This document shows positions 1 to 19,687 of a stretch of DNA of 20,965 bases, piece after piece (the stretch's first letter is position 1; the number at the start of each line of letters is the position of its first letter). The position numbers and the translations under genes were made by a program. Under the pieces are notes generated by a model. That model had not been told where the DNA came from, did no database searches, and saw nothing but the letters and a program-made list of their open reading frames with translations. Source of the stretch: a virus. The stretch lies in IMG/VR virus record IMGVR_UViG_3300036768_001517, positions 1 to 20,965 of that record; one strand, written 5' to 3'.

Positions 1-582
1 GATGTCGCTGAACCGGCGGGCACGCTTTCGTGCCCGCCGGTCGGGGTGTATGACGTAACGGCAGAGCGGCTCCATTGGCACAATGCCAAACGTTTCGCGC
101 AGACAGCGTTCTGCCTTCGTGCTCGGAGAATCGGCATAGGTAACCGACGGGTCCAGCCACGGGAGATCGAGCTTGTAGTCGTATTTCGATGGCTCTTGGC
201 CAAGCAGGAAAACGCGATGCGCCAACTTGTAAAAAACATTGCAGCCGGGCTTGACGGCACAATCAATGAGCATGCGAGGGTAAAAATGGCGCAGATGACG
301 CAGCAATATAGTGCCCTGCACGGTGTCGCCGAGGCCATGATGCCAGCGAAGCAGAAGTCGCCGACGGTGTATCAGATCGATACCGAGCTTGATTAGATCG
401 CCGCTGCCAGGGACAAGCATGTTCAGCATCCGCTGTCTCTTGGCGCAACCTGAGCAGCGGGTAATGGCATCAAGATCGACGCGTGCGCATTTGGCAACTA
501 CGCGCCTTGCCGCCGACCAGACTGTCCTGCCACACGTGGGACAGAAGAATCGTTGTCCTTCCCGGCTGAATTCGCAATTCAT
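1..582 (-). CDS. Zinc-ribbon and GT9-like glycosyltransferase, 3' end outside window
   Basis: The reading frame opens with ATG at 582 and stays open for 194 codons to the left edge, so the C terminus is missing. Residues 1-50 are Cys-rich with two CxxC pairs (CPTC at 14-17, CSGC at 43-46), as in a zinc ribbon. Residues 79-102 include RWHHGLGDTVQGTILLRHLR followed by HFYP. This resembles the N-terminal glycine loop of GT-B heptosyltransferase-type glycosyltransferases (family 9), usually written GLGDxLxxTPxLRxLRxxYP. By family knowledge it would move a sugar from a nucleotide-sugar donor, but the donor-binding half lies outside the window. It starts 11 nt after the stop of the Cys-rich gene and ends the late operon, where phages often carry accessory genes. 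A role in glycosylating virion, DNA or host envelope is inference. The coding call is strong; the function is moderate. Confidence 0.75.
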   Translation of the reverse strand, partial: MNCEFSREGQRFFCPTCGRTVWSAARRVVAKCARVDLDAITRCSGCAKRQRMLNMLVPGSGDLIKLGIDLIHRRRLLLRWHHGLGDTVQGTILLRHLRHFYPRMLIDCAVKPGCNVFYKLAHRVFLLGQEPSKYDYKLDLPWLDPSVTYADSPSTKAERCLRETFGIVPMEPLCRYVIHPDRRARKRARRFSDI

Positions 583-593
583 CTGAGCCCGCA

Positions 594-1163
594 TCATGGC
601 AGAGCCCGCAGGCGACAGGTAGCATTCGCGCCGGTACACAATTCTCCAGGAGTGCTGAGGACGACCGGCGCCGTCATCACCAAGTCGAGGGCCGGACAAA
701 CGATCGGCCCTGGAAACTGCCGCTCGAAGCCCACGCTAAATTCCGGCCCATTGTTTGGGAAGCCTCCACCGATTGTGACTCTCACGCTCACCGCCGGCCA
801 CAGGCGCACTATCGTCGTCTTTACCCGGAGCGGCCGACCGTCGCAAAGCGAAAAGTCAGTGTAGTACCAATTGCAGCCAATTGCATCGGTGCCAATGTAG
901 GGAAGCACAAATTCTACGTCGTTGACGGCAGTGCACGAGCATTCCCCTACGCCCGCTAGCCCGGTCGTCAACACGCCGAATTCTCGCGGCAGTAATCCGT
1001 CCAAGCAGGAAGTGCAATGCGGATCGACGATAGGCTGGCGGCTAGTGTTCGACGTCGACGTCGACGTACTCGTTGGGGGTGGCGAGCAACAGTCGCAGGG
1101 GAGCCCATAGAAGCAATAGACTGGCGCCAACCAACGCGTGAAGTGGGTCCATGCGGTATTCAT
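594..1163 (-). CDS. Cys-rich phage protein of unknown function, probably tail-associated
   Basis: This 189-aa protein starts at ATG 1163, which overlaps the preceding stop as TGATG. An AGGGA Shine-Dalgarno sequence lies 6 nt upstream; an ATG at 1169 is possible but leaves no spacing. It has 13 cysteines, with a cluster near the N terminus (PCDCC at about 23-27) followed by Pro-Pro-Pro and a Thr-Ser repeat linker. Further CxxC or CxC pairs include HCTSC and ECSC. The second half is rich in beta-prone segments (RVTIGGGFPNN, PEFSVGFE). No signal peptide or enzyme motif is evident. Its place behind two probable distal-tail genes suggests a virion or metal- or disulfide-stabilised accessory protein. 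I do not recognise the family beyond recalling similar Cys-rich proteins at this place in planctomycete prophages. Confidence 0.7.
   Translation of the reverse strand: MNTAWTHFTRWLAPVYCFYGLPCDCCSPPPTSTSTSTSNTSRQPIVDPHCTSCLDGLLPREFGVLTTGLAGVGECSCTAVNDVEFVLPYIGTDAIGCNWYYTDFSLCDGRPLRVKTTIVRLWPAVSVRVTIGGGFPNNGPEFSVGFERQFPGPIVCPALDLVMTAPVVLSTPGELCTGANATCRLRALP
1049..1066 (-). repeat. Three tandem TCGACG hexamers (Thr-Ser linker)
   Basis: Three perfect tandem copies of the hexamer TCGACG sit inside the Cys-rich gene. On the coding strand they encode alternating Thr and Ser in the linker after the Pro-rich segment. Unit gain or loss would keep the frame and only change linker length. Confidence 0.6.
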
Positions 1164-1846: not shown

Positions 1847-2686
1847 TCAGATCCCCAACAACGAAAAGTCGGCGGACGGATAAACCTCATCGACGTAGAC
1901 GGCGACCGGAGACTCGACTAGTCGTTTTGCGGCATTATCGACTGTCTTATCAAAAAAAACCCAAACATAATCAAAGGCATTATGATAGACGCCGTCGATG
2001 CCGCAGACGTTTTCCGTAACATTGCGACCGACTTCGAACTGGAAGGTCACACTCACATAGCCGTCGTCTTGCGTCTGGCCGGTCGCTCCCAAAAAAAGAA
2101 CCTGCTTCGGCTCAAAGATGCGCCAAGCCGATGCATTCACGCTGCCGGTAAGGCTGGCCAGGATATTGATATAGCTGGGCGTGATAAGGGCCGCCGGCAG
2201 TTGGTGCGTCTCCGAGAACTTGAGATACGGCGCGACGAATCCATCCGCGCCATCGACGCCGTCTTCGTGAACGTTAATTGCTCCGTGCTGATTTGGCGGA
2301 AGCCGTTCGAGCGCTTGATTGGGGTAAATTGTTTCGTTGATTCCGTGGTCTTTATGAACCGTCTTGCCGCTGGTGTCAAAGCTGACCGAAACCAGTCCTG
2401 GCTGATTCTGGTTGCCGCCCTCGAGCGACTGAAGCGACTGATAAACCAGGGTGCAGTCCCACTGCTCCGGGCCGACCTGCTCGACTTCGTGCATATACCG
2501 AGGCAGGACACGACCGAGGATCGAATCGCTGTATAGCGGCGGAGCCGTGGCCAGCAGGGCGGCTCTAGCGGCGTCCTGGTCGGTAGCGCCCTCGACTGTC
2601 CATTTGGTCTCGATGCTGGTAGTATAAGTGCGTTCGTCGCAGTTGGTGCGACGGGAGCCGAAGCGCTCGTAACAGGTGACGGCCAT
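1847..2686 (-). CDS. Phage structural protein, probable distal tail protein
   Basis: This 279-aa protein starts with ATG at 2686. That ATG shares a CATG palindrome with the ATG of the opposing plus-strand gene, so the two start codons overlap head to head. No clear Shine-Dalgarno sequence precedes it. Its leader, and any promoter of its own, would lie inside the opposing gene. The sequence is acidic, lacks a signal peptide or membrane segment, and has beta-rich stretches such as YVSVTFQFEVGRNV. A run of eight T on the coding strand (1952-1959) encodes Phe-Phe near the C-terminal third. Position after the tape measure gene points to the tail tip; no domain is recognised. Confidence 0.75.
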   Translation of the reverse strand: MAVTCYERFGSRRTNCDERTYTTSIETKWTVEGATDQDAARAALLATAPPLYSDSILGRVLPRYMHEVEQVGPEQWDCTLVYQSLQSLEGGNQNQPGLVSVSFDTSGKTVHKDHGINETIYPNQALERLPPNQHGAINVHEDGVDGADGFVAPYLKFSETHQLPAALITPSYINILASLTGSVNASAWRIFEPKQVLFLGATGQTQDDGYVSVTFQFEVGRNVTENVCGIDGVYHNAFDYVWVFFDKTVDNAAKRLVESPVAVYVDEVYPSADFSLLGI

Positions 2687-3128
2687 GCTGATTTATCTGG
2701 CGATATTGGCGATCGGGCAGGTCCGGGGAGGAATGGGAGAGGAAGTCAAATGGCTGGGCCCATCGTCAGGCGGCGCCCTGCATAACGGAGTAGCCAGCGA
2801 GATTTACGACTATTTCTATGCAAGTCGCGATCTCAAGATCGAGCAAGGATATGAGAAGCGAAGAGCTTTTGTCGTTGTGGACGAAGCATTTGCGTCGCTA
2901 CCGGCAGACCTCCAGGCGAAGTGGCTTTGTGGATGGTTTGCCGCCGGTTGGCTTCGGCCACCCACGCCAAATCGAAATAATATGGCGACCGTCTATATAC
3001 TGGCAGATGCTCGCAAGAAGCTCGGCACCTATCGCTTCGGCGACCGAACGATCAAATACGCCCCCGGCATGAAACCCAAAAAGGTCAAGCCAAAGCCTAT
3101 GGCTCGCGGAACAAGACGTCCACGATGA
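2685..3128 (+). CDS. Opposite-strand protein sharing a 12-aa motif with the tape measure
   Basis: This is the only convincing plus-strand gene: 147 aa from ATG 2685, preceded by AGGTG about 7 nt upstream; a GTG at 2676 is an in-frame alternative. It opens with a short hydrophobic stretch (MLIYLAILAIG), then RGGMGEEVKWLG at 2724-2759, identical to residues 540-551 of the tape measure protein. Next come a mixed alpha/beta region with YDYFYASRDL, FVVVDEAFASLP and LQAKWLCGWFAAGW, and a very basic tail (KPKKVKPKP, then Arg-rich). The reverse strand offers only Arg/Ser-rich shadow ORFs. The gene overlaps its left neighbour's start by 2 nt and its right neighbour's end by 32 nt, so no room remains for an intergenic promoter. 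The function is unknown. It could be a late insertion, an antisense regulator or a relic of an inverted segment. Confidence 0.65.
   Translation: MLIYLAILAIGQVRGGMGEEVKWLGPSSGGALHNGVASEIYDYFYASRDLKIEQGYEKRRAFVVVDEAFASLPADLQAKWLCGWFAAGWLRPPTPNRNNMATVYILADARKKLGTYRFGDRTIKYAPGMKPKKVKPKPMARGTRRPR
2724..2759 (+). repeat. Inverted repeat copy A, coding RGGMGEEVKWLG
   Basis: These 36 bases match the reverse complement of 3755-3790 at 31 of 36 positions. All five mismatches fall on third codon positions and are synonymous (Arg, Gly, Gly, Gly, Val codons). The longest exact run is 12 nt at the 3' end. Both copies sit in the same frame relative to their genes. Confidence 0.85.
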
Positions 3129-3618
3129 CGCCCTGCGCCTGCGTGCCCGATGAGCCAGCCAGACTGGCCTGCACCTCGAAGATGTCGTTGGCCACATAAC
3201 TGGCGTTGCTGATCGAAGCCAGTAGGGCGCTATTGGCTGTGCTGGCCGAGTTGATTATCATGCTGCTGGCCAGGATCGAGCTATACGAGCCGCCACCACT
3301 CGATCTCTTGAGATCGAGTGATACGACACGATCGCCCGTCGGCGCAGCGCCGGTCACGGCGTAGCGGACGGCGTCAATCTGTCCGGCAGCGTGGGCGACG
3401 TGGATCGTCGCGGATTCAGCCGTCACATCGATGTCGTTTGGCTGTGAGTAGCGAGCCGAGAATTTATGAATCAGCTTATCGGCGTCAATCCGATCGCCCA
3501 CGGCCGCCGAAACGGCCGCATTGCCCACGCTGCCGGGAGGCGGGCTGAGCGTCGCATTCTGAAAGGAAATAGTGCCGTTTTTGAAAACGACATTGCCGTC
3601 GAACACCTGCGTTGCCAT
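3097..3618 (-). CDS. Phage structural protein downstream of the tape measure
   Basis: This 173-aa protein starts at ATG 3618, chosen because a strong AGGAGG Shine-Dalgarno sequence lies about 6 nt upstream. Longer in-frame starts would run back into the tape measure gene. The N terminus (MATQVFDGNVVFKNGTI) has alternating beta-type residues. The rest is rich in Ser, Ala, Thr and Val with beta-prone stretches such as ATIHVAH and DRVVSLDL, and the C terminus ends VIVDVLF. It has no Cys and no membrane segment. It looks like a beta-rich virion protein, perhaps distal tail or tail tip; no family is recognised. Its last 32 nt overlap the end of the convergent plus-strand gene. Confidence 0.78.
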   Translation of the reverse strand: MATQVFDGNVVFKNGTISFQNATLSPPPGSVGNAAVSAAVGDRIDADKLIHKFSARYSQPNDIDVTAESATIHVAHAAGQIDAVRYAVTGAAPTGDRVVSLDLKRSSGGGSYSSILASSMIINSASTANSALLASISNASYVANDIFEVQASLAGSSGTQAQGVIVDVLFREP

Positions 3619-3628
3619 CTGGCTCCTC

Positions 3629-5407
3629 CTACATAAAGCCGACTGCAAGCACCCCGCCCTTGCGGAGCAGAGCGGCCAATTGGTCGTTCGCCTTAGCTGT
3701 GTTGCTGGCAATCTTCTTGGTATTCTGTTCCATGCGAGCCTGCGGCCCGAATCCGCCCAGCCATTTCACTTCCTCGCCCATGCCGCCACGAATCACGTCA
3801 TGGGCAGCAGCCTTGATTTCGGGGGCGTGCAGCAAGTTATCTAGCTGCTCGATGCGAGCATCGATTTCAGGAATCGCTCGCGGCTTTTTCCGTTCGGCCG
3901 CCGCCGCGTCCAGCAAGGCTTTTCGCTGCTTTTTAAGAATCTCAATCTCGGCCCCAATCTTATGCCGCTGATCCTCGGCCGCCTTTTCGAGATCGGCAAG
4001 CTGGCCCTTGAGGGCGTTATCAATCGCCTTGATTTCTTCGTCGCGAACTTTCGCGATCCGATTTAGCTCGGCCTGCCGCGCTCGCTCAAAAGGACGGCGC
4101 AGCTCGTCATCAACTTCCGTGTGGCGCCTGCCCCGCTCTTCTTCCAGCAAGGCCCTGGCCTTAGCCGCCGTCTCGTGGCTGATTGAACCTTTTAGCTCGC
4201 GGTTGCGAACGTCGAGCAGCGCTTCGCCAATGCCCGCGTCGATCTCCATCTTGCGACGAGCGATCTCCATCCGCAGCGGAATACCTTTGAAAAAATAGCG
4301 AATCCGCTCACCAATCTCCTGAATCTTCGCGCCGAAGCGAACGAAGAGCTTTTCCAGGGCGGCAACCGCCTCGATCCCCGGCAATTGAAAGGCGTGCCAG
4401 AGCGTGACCCATTGTTTTTTCAGGGCCGTTGCCCCTCTGGCCCACTCCAGCTCCAGAGTCTTCCAGAGGATTTGGGCCGCCAATTGCCAATCGCCAGACG
4501 CCAACGAATTCCGGATTCCTTCAAAAGTCGTTAACGCATCCTCTTTGACGATCGCCCAAATATCGCGAAGTGTGTTGGCAGCATTCGCCATCCTCTGCGT
4601 GCTGCGAACAAACAGCAGGCCGATTCCCGCCACGCTGGCCAGAACGAGCCCCGCTGGCGAAACGAGCGCCAATAAGGCGACTTTTACCGCAGCAAGCGCC
4701 GTATCGCTCGCAAGCATCCCCAGCCGCAGTTCCCTGAACAGGAAACTCGCCGAACCGATCGCCTTGCCCAGTGCCAGCACGCTAATGGCGGCTCCGGCCA
4801 GTGCGACGCCGGCTGCCGCAGCCACGCGAAACACGTCGCGGTGGCTGCGAATCCAGGCCGCCGCGATCTGAGCCGCCTCGGTCATGTAGTTGGCGAGCCG
4901 AATCAACTCGGGCATCAGTGCGCTGCCGATTACGGCCGCGCCAGTCTGCAATACTTCCCAAACGGCCTTCAGGTGCCGGCTAAACGTCGTCGCGGCCAAA
5001 GCGTCTTCGCGGCTGAGCGTATAGCCGAGGGCCGCCGCCTCTTTTTCGAAATCCGCAAAAACCCCCGCGTCCTCTGGATGCTTTGTGACGTGATCGACCA
5101 GCTCTTCGAGACTGACGCCCGCCAGGGTCGCCGCGTAGCGCAGTTGCGAAAGCCTTTCGACCGACAGTCCGCTCTTGGCCGACAGATCGACAAGCTCGCC
5201 GCCCAATTTGGTCGCATCGCGGACGGCGACGGCGAAGCCGGCATTAATCAGCGAGCCAGAAAACAATGCCTTGCCGATCTTGCTGACCTTGACCGACCAG
5301 TCGGAGATTTTGCGCTCCGCTTCTTTGAGGCCCTTTTGCAGGCGACCGTCCTTGGCGAACAACTCGACGAAGGCCTCGCCCGCCTTGATTTGTCCAGAGC
5401 CAGCCAA
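3629..5407 (-). CDS. Tail tape measure protein
   Basis: This 592-aa protein is called tape measure from position (directly after the G/T chaperone pair) and composition. Residues 1-170 are helical and Ala-rich. Two long hydrophobic segments follow at about 193-217 (VALAGAAISVLALGKAI) and 242-268 (ALLALVSPAGLVLASVAGI). Long charged helices with coiled-coil character fill 350-530. The start is TTG at 5407, supported by AAGGA about 8 nt upstream; the T stop lies only 4 nt before it. By family knowledge it sets tail length and exits with the DNA; 592 aa predicts a rather short tail. Residues 540-551 (RGGMGEEVKWLG) recur in the opposing gene at 2685-3128. The last 40 residues contain the polar repeat-like NTKKIASNTAKAN, common at tape measure C termini. 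Confidence 0.88.
   Translation of the reverse strand: MAGSGQIKAGEAFVELFAKDGRLQKGLKEAERKISDWSVKVSKIGKALFSGSLINAGFAVAVRDATKLGGELVDLSAKSGLSVERLSQLRYAATLAGVSLEELVDHVTKHPEDAGVFADFEKEAAALGYTLSREDALAATTFSRHLKAVWEVLQTGAAVIGSALMPELIRLANYMTEAAQIAAAWIRSHRDVFRVAAAAGVALAGAAISVLALGKAIGSASFLFRELRLGMLASDTALAAVKVALLALVSPAGLVLASVAGIGLLFVRSTQRMANAANTLRDIWAIVKEDALTTFEGIRNSLASGDWQLAAQILWKTLELEWARGATALKKQWVTLWHAFQLPGIEAVAALEKLFVRFGAKIQEIGERIRYFFKGIPLRMEIARRKMEIDAGIGEALLDVRNRELKGSISHETAAKARALLEEERGRRHTEVDDELRRPFERARQAELNRIAKVRDEEIKAIDNALKGQLADLEKAAEDQRHKIGAEIEILKKQRKALLDAAAAERKKPRAIPEIDARIEQLDNLLHAPEIKAAAHDVIRGGMGEEVKWLGGFGPQARMEQNTKKIASNTAKANDQLAALLRKGGVLAVGFM
3755..3790 (-). repeat. Inverted repeat copy B, coding RGGMGEEVKWLG in tape measure
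   Basis: This is the partner of 2724-2759 on the opposite strand, encoding residues 540-551 of the tape measure protein. The two copies enclose the whole 3097-3618 gene and most of the plus-strand gene. Confidence 0.85.
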
Positions 5408-9746: not shown

Positions 9747-10541
9747 GGTTGAGTGTTCCTTCTCTTGCTTGGGCACGATCGCCAGACCATGCCGATCCAA
9801 AAAGCGAGCGATAAATCCGCGAGCGCGATCCGGGTCGATGCCAAGATCGCCGGCCTGCGGCCTTTCGTCAGAAAACCCGAACACGTAGTCGGCTAGCGTT
9901 TCTGCCTCTTCGATCACGCCATCGACGGAGAACAAACCTTCCGGATTGGCCGCCGGATCGCCCACCATATCCACGGCCCGCAATCGCTTCAGGCGAACAT
10001 GCGGATAGTTGTTCACGTTCAGCGGATCGGGGCTTTGAAACGCACTGCCGCCGTGGTCTGAAATAAACTGATCCTCGGCCGCGTAATCGGGCGCAAACGA
10101 AATGCTGGCCCCAAAGCTGGCCGGGTCTTCTTCGGCCCGGTCCATAAGGTAGCCGGCCAGGTCGCCGTCCGGCGTGTGATGGGCGCTCTTGGCGAAATGC
10201 TCATCGGCTCGCACGACGTCGCCGTCGACGAGGGCATTTTTGGTGCGCCCCAAATGCTTCCCTAAGCCGTCGCCCGACAAATCGGGATGCGTATAGCGGC
10301 TCTTGACTCCGGCACCGCTGGCGTTGATCGAATCGGCGACTTGCTGCAAAAACACGCCGTCGATCCACATATCATGCCCGAGGGCTTCGCCCCGCGTGAC
10401 CACGGCGAAACCGCGAATCAGGCCCGCTCCGCGATCGCCGCCCGTGCGGTCGACGGGGCTCTCTTCGCCAGCGGAGAGGCCTTTGGCGATCTTCGTTCGC
10501 AGCAGGCGGGGTCGCTCACGCAACTTGCTGTTGACCGGCAT
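9339..10541 (-). CDS. Prohead protease fused to scaffold
   Basis: This 400-aa protein starts with ATG at 10541 (GGGGA about 7 nt upstream), overlapping the portal end by 26 nt. Residues 35-205 form a prohead serine protease-like domain. A likely catalytic His lies in SRYTHP (His85) and a likely nucleophile Ser in FGASISF (Ser146), followed by AVDMVGDPAANPEGLF, a common end block of such domains. Residues 266-400 are acidic and helical with a coiled coil (LRAENERLTREKDELKKQLA), typical of scaffolds. By family knowledge the protease cleaves the scaffold and itself before packaging. Family assignment (S78 or U35-like) is uncertain. Confidence 0.82.
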   Translation of the reverse strand: MPVNSKLRERPRLLRTKIAKGLSAGEESPVDRTGGDRGAGLIRGFAVVTRGEALGHDMWIDGVFLQQVADSINASGAGVKSRYTHPDLSGDGLGKHLGRTKNALVDGDVVRADEHFAKSAHHTPDGDLAGYLMDRAEEDPASFGASISFAPDYAAEDQFISDHGGSAFQSPDPLNVNNYPHVRLKRLRAVDMVGDPAANPEGLFSVDGVIEEAETLADYVFGFSDERPQAGDLGIDPDRARGFIARFLDRHGLAIVPKQEKEHSTMSEQTKPTESKPDELQEAGKLAVESSAEANARPAERAKEGHQFLAAFGDRGGRWFAEGKSFAEAQSLYLGELRAENERLTREKDELKKQLAANRGEAAPVAYEADKLSDATVARLRNAVGSDSLARFAAGIQLRD

Positions 10542-11958
10542 CGTTATTCCCCACGGGAATCCAGATGGTTTTCATGGTCGAGAGCGGAACGCCGGCTTCC
10601 TCGGCATAGGCCCGCACTCGAGCGTTCTTGTCGATGTTTTCGTAGACGTTGCGGCCGTGTCGCTGGGCGACGTCCTCGTAGTTGTCAAGTGACGAATCGA
10701 TCGCAAAGAGTTCGGCCTGGATTTCTTTTAGGGGATCAAGCCAAGGCATGCCCCGATGAATCCATTCCCATCGGGCATCGAGCGCAGCAATCGGCAGCTT
10801 GCCGTCTTGGACGGCCAAGGACAGCCGCCAGGCAGTCCACCAATCCAGTAGCTCGCGAACATCCTGGCGGACGATTTCGGCCGACTGTTCATACTGGAGA
10901 TACGCCTGCCGCGCGCCGCTATAGTTGGTGAAATCTTCGGAATAGAAGCTGTAGGGGATATTTAGCGCTTTTAGGGCGGCGGCGATAATCGTGCTAGCGA
11001 ATTGCTGAAACTCCAGCGACGGGCTTTGGGCTTCCAGAAAGTCGGCCTGGTCGCCCGGATCGAGGTCAAGCAAAAATGGCCCCCGGCCAAAATCGATCGT
11101 ATAGCCGACATCTTTCTGCTCGCCATCTTCTCCGGCATCGCTGGCCGTCTGCGTAATCTGGCCCAGCGGCTCGCTTGACTCGCGAAAGATTTTCAATCCA
11201 AAGAGCTGGCTAACCTTCATCTTGGCCAGGGCATAGTCGAAACCTTCGTAGGTGTCCCGGAACGAATTGAGCGCCGAAGCGATCTCGGAGATTCCACGCA
11301 CGCAGTCGAACCGCTCGCCGTAAGCCGCGTGAAGATACAAATGGGCGGCCGGCACAATCCGGTCGAGAATAAATCCACCCGTCAACGGGAGCCGTCGGCA
11401 GATGGCGTAGTTCAGCGCTCGGCCGCTGCCGTCGACCTCGACGCCTTCGATCCATTGCCGCAAAACGCGGCCGGCGCTGTCGACTGTTGGCATCCAGTCG
11501 CCAGGCATGCCCAACGGCGTGCGAATGCGATCGCTCTCGATCGCCTGCAGGCGGCCGTCCGCCAGGCGGAGCAGCCCGAGGTCGCCATCAATAACGCGGC
11601 GCGCCTCGGCGAAGCGGATCGCCCGAGCCAGCGAATGACGGCCGGCGACGTCAAACGCCTCCTTTTTCCCAAATTCGCCGATAGATGCTTCGAGTTGCGT
11701 GTCCAGAGCGTCATCGCCGGTTTTCGCCTGAAAGCTGAAGGTCGTCACGTAGTCCAGGTGCCTGGCGATCATCCATTTGGCGATCGCGAAGTTGCGCCGC
11801 ATGTCCCGGGCGTTGGTAATTAGCCGACCTCGATCGCTGCTATTCAGCTCGCGATCTTCGCTACGCAATTTGCTGGCGGGAGCTTTGCGGCGCTGATTCT
11901 CGCGGGCCGCGTCATATCCCAGCCCGACGAATTTGCCAATCGCTCGCAGCAGACTCAT
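10516..11958 (-). CDS. Portal protein, lambda B family
   Basis: This 480-aa protein starts with ATG at 11958, overlapping the joiner stop as ATGA. The N-terminal region has RGRLITNARDMRRNFAIAKW followed by MIARHLDYV, the classical start of lambda-type portals (Arg-Arg-x-Leu...Asn-x-x-x-Ala). Other blocks fit too: GDLGLLRLADGRLQAIESDR, an acidic loop, and KALNIPYSFYSEDFTNYSGA, which matches the 'lgipYe.ls.Df...nySs.R' portal motif. Twelve copies would form the DNA channel at one capsid vertex and bind terminase. Length is near the lambda portal after processing. Context between joiner and protease is as in lambda. Confidence 0.92.
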   Translation of the reverse strand: MSLLRAIGKFVGLGYDAARENQRRKAPASKLRSEDRELNSSDRGRLITNARDMRRNFAIAKWMIARHLDYVTTFSFQAKTGDDALDTQLEASIGEFGKKEAFDVAGRHSLARAIRFAEARRVIDGDLGLLRLADGRLQAIESDRIRTPLGMPGDWMPTVDSAGRVLRQWIEGVEVDGSGRALNYAICRRLPLTGGFILDRIVPAAHLYLHAAYGERFDCVRGISEIASALNSFRDTYEGFDYALAKMKVSQLFGLKIFRESSEPLGQITQTASDAGEDGEQKDVGYTIDFGRGPFLLDLDPGDQADFLEAQSPSLEFQQFASTIIAAALKALNIPYSFYSEDFTNYSGARQAYLQYEQSAEIVRQDVRELLDWWTAWRLSLAVQDGKLPIAALDARWEWIHRGMPWLDPLKEIQAELFAIDSSLDNYEDVAQRHGRNVYENIDKNARVRAYAEEAGVPLSTMKTIWIPVGNNDAGQQQVA

Positions 11959-17384: not shown

Positions 17385-17780
17385 TTAGCCCTCCGACTCG
17401 CGGCTGTATTGGCCCCACTTGATCGCCATGGCGCAAATCGCCGCCAGGATCGCAGAGCCGATTACCAACAGCCAGTATGGTCGATCGCCGGCAAAAGATT
17501 CAAAAGATTCACTCGCCGGCGGGTCCGCTTTGTTCGCTGCCGAGGGCGCGGGAGAATCTTTGCCGGGATTTGGGTGCCGGCGATCGATGACCTTTTTGAG
17601 CGGACAAAACGGGCCGGCGCAAGGCCTGATATCGCCGTGGACGGCTGCGCTGCGCACCGCAGCTTGATAGAGCGAAGGCAGCCTGGCGAAGGGCCTGCTA
17701 TCTGGCCTTTCGCAGGCGAGCGATGGCAAAACCAGAGCCGCAAAGACCAGCACACAAAGCACAGCCGATAGCCGCTTCAT
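17385..17780 (-). CDS. Secreted or membrane-tethered small protein, unknown function
   Basis: This 131-aa protein starts with ATG at 17780, chosen for its GAGG site 6 nt upstream and for the typical signal peptide it exposes (MKRLSAVLCVLVFAALVL, then PSLAC). A polar, Pro/Ser/Ala-rich middle carries a CAGPFC pair. One C-terminal membrane span follows (YWLLVIGSAILAAICAMAI), then a short KWGQYSRESEG tail. The predicted topology is periplasmic middle, cytoplasmic tail. The gene begins inside the end of the C39-like gene, sharing 83 nt in another frame. This overlap of exported envelope proteins recalls spanin pairs, but no spanin domain is recognised. Confidence 0.65.
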   Translation of the reverse strand: MKRLSAVLCVLVFAALVLPSLACERPDSRPFARLPSLYQAAVRSAAVHGDIRPCAGPFCPLKKVIDRRHPNPGKDSPAPSAANKADPPASESFESFAGDRPYWLLVIGSAILAAICAMAIKWGQYSRESEG

Positions 17781-18333
17781 AAAAAACCTCGTTATTGGGA
17801 CTGATCGCGATAGCCCAGGAACCATCCGACATCCATTTCACATAAAACTCGTCCAGTGGCATCCTGACCACGGACAACGGAAAATTGCTGTCGATCAGAT
17901 AGGCCGCCTGGTCCGAAAGTCCGACGCAAACGACGGCGTGATAGCCGTAGCACTGATCGACCCATGCTGCCTGATAGAAATTTCGCAAGCCCACGATGCA
18001 AGGCCGTTTACAGGCCAGCTGGCGTTGCAGGAATCGCAAGCCCGACTCGAAGTCGCCGACGGCGGACTCAAATTCGATGTCGTGTGTTCTCAGCAGCGAC
18101 TCGATATCAGACTCAGTAAGGCCGCCGAAGTGCCGCGTGCGAAAATGTTCGGCCTTATCGAATTGTCCATAGTAGCGCAGCACCGTGCAGATCGCCGCAT
18201 GGGCGCAGCTTGGCCCCCAATTGCTCTCGCGACTTCCCGCCGGAATGTGAATTGGCCCCTTCGAGCAGCCGACGGAAAACAGAAAGCCAAATAGGCAGCC
18301 GGCGATCAGACGCCAGAAAGCGTTACGCTTCAT
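17698..18333 (-). CDS. C39-like cysteine peptidase, lipoprotein, with C-terminal membrane span
   Basis: This 211-aa protein starts with ATG at 18333. Residues 1-23 form a lipoprotein-type signal (LIAGCLFGFLFSVGC, Cys23 as the lipid site; position -3 is Ser, so not ideal). The mature part begins SNWGPSCAHAAICTVLRYYG: Cys43 followed by a helix and RYYG is the usual nucleophile region of C39-like and related papain-fold peptidases. YGYHAVVCVGL supplies His132 and LIDSNFP supplies Asp148. A hydrophobic C-terminal segment (AAIGCALCAGLCGSGFAIA) before RLRKAR could be a second anchor. It would act in the periplasm or envelope on a peptide or crosslink. The substrate is unknown. It sits between two small membrane genes. 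Confidence 0.72.
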   Translation of the reverse strand: MKRNAFWRLIAGCLFGFLFSVGCSKGPIHIPAGSRESNWGPSCAHAAICTVLRYYGQFDKAEHFRTRHFGGLTESDIESLLRTHDIEFESAVGDFESGLRFLQRQLACKRPCIVGLRNFYQAAWVDQCYGYHAVVCVGLSDQAAYLIDSNFPLSVVRMPLDEFYVKWMSDGSWAIAISPNNEVFYEAAIGCALCAGLCGSGFAIARLRKAR

Positions 18334-18451
18334 GGTCTCGGTGCCACTTTTGAATGACCAGCATGATCAACATCGTCGCGGCGGCCACGATCGGCACGTA
18401 GGCCGGAACTGGATAGTGCCAGAGAGATTCCAGTCGGGTGGCGTAGGCCAT
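18323..18451 (-). CDS. 42-aa single-span membrane peptide
   Basis: The start ATG at 18451 overlaps the papain-like gene's stop as TGATG, and its TAA at 18323 lies 11 nt inside the C39-like gene, so both junctions are coupled. The product opens MAYATRLESLWHYPVPAY, then one span (VPIVAAATMLIMLVI) and a basic, His-containing tail (QKWHRDHEA). Without this gene 117 nt of a tightly packed operon would be empty. It could be a pinholin-type peptide or a partner of the adjacent peptidases; no family is recognised. Confidence 0.65.
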   Translation of the reverse strand: MAYATRLESLWHYPVPAYVPIVAAATMLIMLVIQKWHRDHEA

Positions 18452-19008
18452 CAGGTCAACTCCACGGGGGCCAAGCTGATACCGTCCCGCAATTCCACGC
18501 GGGCCAGTTTGTTTGGAGAAAAACTTGACAAGCTCCGCTTGCCTTCGAGTCGCTTGAAAAGCTTCAACCAGCCAGCTCGGAGTTCCGAGCAGAAAAGGCT
18601 ATGCAGGTCCGTCTGCCGCAGCTTGGACTCGATCCATGACAAGCCTTCCCCGCCGGCTCGGATTGCTCCGATGTAGTCGTATCCCAGTCCCAGCTTGCCG
18701 ACGAAATAGTCGGTAAGCCGCCGGCTTTCGTTTTCCGCGAGCTGCCTGGCCAGCGGGTAATGCCAGACGCGGCCGTCGTAGTGATTGATCCAGTCCGTCA
18801 GCGGTTGGGCTTGAACGCCCTTGCAGGGGACACCGCGAATCACGCAGGGCCGGCGATTATCGGTCGTGCTTTCGAAGACGAGCAGCCGGCCTTCGTAATC
18901 GGCGATCGTTGCCACATGCGACAGCCGGCCATATGTGGCCAGCTTGATCGCCAGGCTGCTCCAGGCGTTGCCGGAGCAATACAAACCGTCGCCGGGCTTG
19001 AATTCCAT
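18451..19008 (-). CDS. YiiX/NlpC-P60-like permuted papain-fold protein
   Basis: This 185-aa protein has its start set at ATG 19008 (MEFKPGDGLYCSGN), because family members begin with this 'PGDxxx' strand. The frame is open further upstream but reads through a hairpin-rich, non-protein-like stretch. Key residues follow the circularly permuted order: His31 (RLSHVATI), Glu46 (LLVFESTTD), then after YDYIGAI the nucleophile Cys140 (HSLFCSELR). By family knowledge such enzymes cut amide or ester links in peptidoglycan peptides or lipids. No signal peptide is present, so as a lytic enzyme it would need a holin-like export route. It begins the membrane/peptidase cassette and is coupled to the 42-aa membrane peptide. 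Confidence 0.78.
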   Translation of the reverse strand: MEFKPGDGLYCSGNAWSSLAIKLATYGRLSHVATIADYEGRLLVFESTTDNRRPCVIRGVPCKGVQAQPLTDWINHYDGRVWHYPLARQLAENESRRLTDYFVGKLGLGYDYIGAIRAGGEGLSWIESKLRQTDLHSLFCSELRAGWLKLFKRLEGKRSLSSFSPNKLARVELRDGISLAPVELT

Positions 19009-19034
19009 GAGGCACCACAAAGAGAGTAAAAGAG

Positions 19035-19082
19035 GCTCTGCGGCGCCTTGCCTGCGCACACAGCAATGTAACGCCGCAGAGC
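19035..19082 (-). terminator. Long-loop hairpin upstream of papain-like gene
   Basis: GCTCTGCGGCG (19035-19045) and CGCCGCAGAGC (19072-19082) are perfectly complementary over 11 bp with a 26-nt loop. In the minus direction the stem is followed by CTCTTTTACTCTCTTT, a broken T-rich tract, so it may terminate or attenuate. The papain-like start lies 26 nt further on. Confidence 0.5.
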
Positions 19083-19127
19083 ACAGCCCGGCCAGGCGAA
19101 GCAAGCGCCTCCCGGCACGCTTGCAGT

Positions 19128-19146
19128 CCGCAGATAGCATCTGCGG
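19128..19146. other. Tight 8-bp hairpin
   Basis: CCGCAGAT and ATCTGCGG pair perfectly around a 3-nt loop. In the plus direction it is followed by GTCAAAATTTTTGA, which is weakly terminator-like for plus-strand transcripts. In the minus direction no T run follows. Confidence 0.45.
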
Positions 19147-19303: not shown

Positions 19304-19687
19304 CTATTGGTTATTACACACTGGACCAACGCTATTTGGTCCCAGCGTCTCCAATTCTTTTGGCAGTTTGCCCGCCTCAATGCGCCGCACCGTCGTAACT
19401 AGCGCTCCAGCGTTCCAGATGATCGCCCCGAGGTGGTTCTCATCGCGATGCCCGGCGACATACTTCGCCAGATGGCGGGCCAGGCTATCGGCGAAGCGGT
19501 GTGTCGGCAGGCCCCGTTCCCAGTTCCGCTCCCCGTAGTGTTTGCAGCCCTCCTCCATGTGCAAAGCCCACTCCAGCAGCGCTTCGTAGGGCAACAGGTC
19601 GAATCGCCCCTTGCCCGCATGCGCGCTGCGAACGGCGCCAGTCGCATATTCGTCACGTCCGCCTGAATCGAGAATGCCGGTTGTCAT
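19304..19687 (-). CDS. dATP/dGTP diphosphohydrolase-like protein (DUF5664 type)
   Basis: This 127-aa protein starts with ATG at 19687, with GGAG 5 nt upstream. The motifs KGRFDLLPYEALLEWALHME, EGCKHYGERNWERG, ARHLAKYVAGHRDENHLG and AIIWNAGAL follow the order of the phage domain named 'dATP/dGTP diphosphohydrolase, N-terminal' (DUF5664). This is an all-alpha, MazG-like nucleotide pyrophosphohydrolase relative. Glu45/Glu46, and acidic and His residues around RDENH, are plausible metal ligands. By family knowledge it would split deoxypurine triphosphates and so shape the dNTP pool during phage replication. The annotated name comes from the family; activity of this stand-alone short form is inference. 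It lies downstream of the DUF3987-type gene, behind an AT-rich leader. Confidence 0.8.
   Translation of the reverse strand: MTTGILDSGGRDEYATGAVRSAHAGKGRFDLLPYEALLEWALHMEEGCKHYGERNWERGLPTHRFADSLARHLAKYVAGHRDENHLGAIIWNAGALVTTVRRIEAGKLPKELETLGPNSVGPVCNNQ

Follow-up and report, generated by a model that had tools for sequence, protein, structure and literature searches.

A putative accessory gene in a phage tail module carries an exact copy of a C-terminal tape measure protein motif

The window (the whole stretch of DNA that was analysed) is a 20,965-base virus sequence, a fragment, and every result reported here rests on this one phage fragment. Its tail module contains a plus-strand open reading frame (ORF) situated between the gene for the tape measure protein (TMP) and that for the late tail protein g1847, together with a further gene, g3097, with which the ORF is convergent. 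The locus contains the following features.

1847–2686, minus strand: g1847, 279 aa, a conserved late tail protein whose gene directly follows the TMP gene in relatives
2685–3128, plus strand: the plus-strand ORF, ATG start, 147 aa, no matches in homologue searches
2687–3628: insertion between the TMP stop codon and the g1847 start, 942 nt
2724–2759, plus strand: codons for RGGMGEEVKWLG, residues 14–25 of the plus-strand ORF
3097–3618, minus strand: g3097, 173 aa, convergent with the plus-strand ORF, 32-nt overlap
3629–5407, minus strand: TMP gene, 592 aa, PHROG tail length tape measure, best E value 5e-12
3755–3790, minus strand: codons for RGGMGEEVKWLG, TMP residues 540–551, where related TMPs have the conserved motif [R]GTFSAxxAxRLG

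The 592-aa product belongs to the TMP family, as it matches PHROG tape measure families and relatives have the same gene order. g1847 is a candidate tail-tip protein; a fold search gave no significant PDB match, and its BFVD matches were only to unnamed phage proteins. Elsewhere in the window, the open end (1–699, minus strand) holds a partial gene, past the tail genes and at the end of the contig, which by eye resembles family 9 glycosyltransferases. A protein with a dATP/dGTP diphosphohydrolase N-terminal domain (19304–19687; PF18909, E value 5e-20) is a possible nucleotide-pool gene product. Two adjoining genes encode cysteine-peptidase-like proteins, one resembling C92/YiiX-like amidases (18451–19140; E value 0.0035) and the other with a weak match to C39-like peptidases (17698–18333; E value 0.11).

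The ATG of the plus-strand ORF overlaps the g1847 start codon as CATG and has the Shine–Dalgarno (SD)-like sequence AGGTGA 5 nt upstream; an alternative GTG start at 2676 is possible. Since the RGG shared with the TMP (see below) lies upstream of the internal methionine, translation probably begins upstream of that residue, at 2685 or at the GTG. Among the six frames, only that of the ORF has a coding score over most of 2687–3096, where no minus-strand genes are present. The score is weaker than in most phage genes and neighbours; it is mostly positive, and 147 codons are open. The synonymous codon usage of the ORF is the most atypical among the 22 genes compared (−1.71 bits per codon versus −1.35 to −1.60) and its GC content is below that of 96% of windows of the same size, so that the ORF looks foreign. 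No convincing or consensus promoter was found in a scan of the region directly upstream, consensus scans being weak evidence in this organism. The product has an 11-residue hydrophobic start and a very basic C terminus (KPKKVKPKPMARGTRRPR), the latter as described in the first-pass annotation. Its structure, predicted without an alignment, reached a pLDDT of 46, which is too low for fold prediction. On these sequence features, we hold with moderate confidence that the ORF is a real, horizontally acquired gene with putative expression.

About 100 related virus loci were retrieved with major capsid and terminase queries. The TMP and g1847 genes are separated by −8 to +104 nt in ten relatives for which a complete TMP and a g1847 homologue are available, versus 942 nt in the window. 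The ORF and the convergent g3097 therefore lie in an insertion. Homologues of g3097 are found between the tail tube gene and g5618 in the related records L031 and L055, which indicates that g3097 has been relocated in the window, a tail gene now following the TMP gene. L031 also has two tandem tail tube genes (3590–4492), both matching g6087. In another related record, L003, positions 10536–11150 encode a Cas9-like N terminus (ILGLDIGANSVGWAVIG) and then an arginine-rich stretch, with a weak RRXRR Pfam match (E value 0.002); this lies a few hundred bases past the last tail-side ORFs and may be phage-borne or part of a flanking host locus. Of 20 related records, 8 have an integrase or resolvase gene (match above the cut-off or with E ≤ 0.001), which makes lysogeny plausible for the clade. 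No integrase was found in the 21-kb record itself.

The plus-strand product and the TMP have RGGMGEEVKWLG in common, with identity at 12 of 12 residues, as had been noticed on first reading. The two DNA copies are identical at 31 of 36 positions. The five differences (CGT/CGG, GGC/GGA three times and GTG/GTC) are indeed all synonymous third bases, for which p is about 0.002 if the positions are unconstrained. When 200 shuffles of the ORF protein were compared with the six-frame translation of the window, the longest exact common peptide was 4–7 residues. A chance match of the 12-mer is thereby excluded. HMMER matched the TMP to the plus-strand product at E = 2.4e-4. Beyond the 12-mer no similarity between the two proteins was found, in agreement with the earlier statement that the remainder of the 147-aa product is unrelated to the TMP.

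Nine related TMPs contain GTF[SNG] at 44–57 residues from the C-terminal end. The usual form is [R]GTFSAxxAxRLG followed by a helix of type ERTAKATEETAKNTKK; the TMP of the window has RGGMGEEVKWLG at the same place, followed by the matching helix EQNTKKIASNTAKA. This shared place and shared following helix indicate that the 12-mer coincides with the C-terminal motif conserved in the family. By our own estimate, about 1% of random 12-mers from the 592-residue protein would lie this close to the motif. The proposal that the shared stretch is a docking peptide gains indirect support from its position. Among the relatives examined, the RGGMGEEVKWLG variant of the motif is unique to this phage.

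Two possibilities raised alongside the original observation were not borne out, namely that the motif might recur in other TMPs or small proteins and that the plus-strand product might have homologues. None of the related TMPs and small proteins that were examined contains RGGMGEEVKWLG, and scans of IMG/VR with degenerate forms of the motif gave three matches, none of them coding, at the degeneracy covered. No homologue of the product was found by peptide-pattern scans of IMG/VR and GTDB genomes, by tblastn in phage records, by HMMER on 58 related records or in Pfam, PHROGs, NCBIfam, PADLOC and PDB; the searches for close relatives relied on exact peptide patterns and may not have reached the records nearest to the window. 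The relatives contain no second copy of the TMP motif, and the 7-mers shared with other ORFs are isolated and chance-like.

The two copies differ at five codons, versus a mean of 5.8 expected under independent codon choice, in a test whose power is limited because only 10 of the 12 codons can vary. The copy in the TMP gene is in keeping with the codon usage of the phage, and that in the ORF agrees better with the usage of the ORF itself. Since the codon differences are about as many as independent choice gives, there is no need to invoke DNA copying or an active DNA repeat. Together with the gene-specific codon fit, they make both a recent copy and an active inverted recombination site less likely, so that the earlier suggestion of selection on the peptide is reasonable. 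The two 36-nt arms encoding the 12-mer form the longest inverted repeat among those listed for the window; this repeat, the insertion and the foreign codon usage of the ORF are additions to the first reading. Long-range RNA pairing in the late transcript was considered and rejected. All five differences are non-pairing (U-C, C-U and G-G, no wobble), which indicates that no RNA stem or structure is being kept. A diversity-generating retroelement was likewise rejected, as the mismatches include T/G and G/C, are not adenine-specific and are all synonymous.

The explanation that we tentatively favour, and regard as quite possible though short of probable, is that the phage acquired the plus-strand ORF as a moron, the product of which mimics the C-terminal motif of the TMP and competes for or shares a TMP partner. 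This accessory gene would have been placed in reverse orientation after the TMP gene, ahead of the tail gene that follows. An insertion between genes that are adjacent in relatives and an atypical composition, both expected of a moron, are found here. Near its N terminus the putative product would bear an exact copy of the motif that replaces GTFSAxxAxRLG of the family in this phage. Its most likely use would be that of a decoy occupying the site into which the C terminus of the TMP normally fits; the tail-tip hub, a tail assembly factor and a host factor used in DNA entry are candidate sites. Related phages would thereby be impaired in tail assembly or DNA entry, an effect like that of Tab (see below). 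This further step, in which an accessory protein with the C-terminal docking motif of its own TMP blocks or gates tail assembly or genome entry by tape-measure mimicry, is possible but rather doubtful.

The decoy proposal starts from a gene-like, foreign ORF in an insertion, an exactly shared peptide and the position of that peptide on a conserved TMP motif. The far-beyond-chance match, the absence of the insertion from ten relatives, the exclusively synonymous differences and codon differences as under independent choice are all consistent with a decoy, and the integrase and resolvase genes of the clade would permit lysogeny. In siphophages such as JBD30, the core of the baseplate anchors the C termini of the TMP (PMC11445458), and Tab serves as a precedent (PMC10884400). 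The ORF would have to be expressed, its product would have to meet and compete for a TMP partner, and a lysogen would presumably benefit. Several observations speak against a decoy. Neither a homologue of the ORF nor a convincing upstream promoter was found, the record is without an integrase, the motif variant is unique to this phage, the predicted structure has low confidence, and Tab, the closest functional precedent, shares no peptide of more than 4 residues with its TMP. A self-targeting decoy would also call for some counter-measure, of which the only sign that emerged is that g3097 is convergent with the ORF. Except in a few model phages, it is poorly known what the TMP C terminus binds and how this partner triggers tail assembly and genome entry; a naturally occurring protein with the same short motif would point to the partner and provide a testable inhibitor.

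The inverted arms could instead be recombination sites, in the same codon phase, of an invertible or exchange cassette. A 995-nt inversion would replace the C terminus of the TMP (41 aa) by the 122-aa tail of the ORF, like the G segment of Mu. As in invertible tail cassettes of the Mu G-segment type, the repeats lie within two ORFs, in phase, and flank about 1 kb (2760–3754). Unlike in those cassettes, the likeness is explained at the peptide level, no recombinase was found in this fragment and the alternative end is not TMP-like. The DNA identity of the arms is no higher than predicted from the peptide alone (5 of 12 codons differ) and their codon biases differ. The 21-kb record, a fragment, yielded no resolvase or tyrosine recombinase; the alternative tail is without the C-terminal helix of the TMP family, and the ORF is provided with a start codon and an SD-like sequence of its own. 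A cassette is highly unlikely on this evidence. It is also rather unlikely that the ORF is not expressed and represents a decaying insertion, its TMP-like stretch kept by chance from an old duplication. Such an origin would agree with the failure to find a homologue or a strong promoter and with a coding score weaker than in most neighbours, but not with 147 open codons and mostly positive scores; moreover, differences that are synonymous only (p about 0.002) would be unexpected of a decaying copy.

Two further explanations accept a functional protein. In one, the product functions in the virion or in assembly and uses the docking peptide of the TMP without interference, both proteins together binding one tail-tip or chaperone partner. 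The same exact 12-mer, beyond chance, speaks for such cooperation as well, as does the location of the ORF inside the tail module next to g1847 and g3097, both late proteins. We consider it unlikely, however, given that all other tail genes are on the other strand, that the codon usage of the ORF looks foreign and that the tail modules of relatives lack the ORF. In the other, the small protein titrates away the sensor of a host defence that recognises this TMP motif. Defence linked to TMPs does exist, since SNIPE interacts with siphovirus TMPs (PMC13190303), and the ORF has the features of an accessory gene; but no defence is known for this motif and PADLOC gave no meaningful match, so that an anti-defence role appears very improbable.

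The favoured moron-encoded decoy can be compared with three known systems. SNIPE is a bacterial factor acting through siphovirus TMPs. In contrast to the ORF product, it is a host-encoded membrane-bound nuclease, and peptide sharing is not reported in the text consulted (PMC13190303). HK97 gp15 and other moron-encoded superinfection exclusion proteins resemble the proposed moron in being products of accessory phage genes whose target pathway involves the TMP (PMC10883804). HK97 gp15 is a predicted inner-membrane protein, whereas the ORF product has only the 11-residue hydrophobic start, the basic tail and the TMP peptide.

The late operon of Pseudomonas phage JBD26 contains the moron Tab (tail assembly blocker) on the opposite strand. 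Tab acts in a way that depends on the C-terminal region of the TMP, and its gene converges on the counter-gene anti-Tab and overlaps it by 47 nt (PMC10884400). Like Tab, the ORF is small, runs opposite to the late genes and overlaps a late gene tail to tail (g3097, 32 nt). The TMP C terminus is involved in both cases, by action for Tab and by the shared peptide for the ORF. g3097 takes the place of anti-Tab relative to the ORF, a resemblance of layout only. Tab differs in its length (83 aa) and in its place between the terminase genes, and it has its own promoter; it has no peptide longer than 4 residues in common with its own TMP, and a blastp comparison of the ORF product with Tab and anti-Tab was negative. 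By analogy, the product may act in the manner of Tab without being a Tab itself. A decoy of this kind would extend prophage-encoded interference with tail assembly, known from Tab and Tai, to mimicry.
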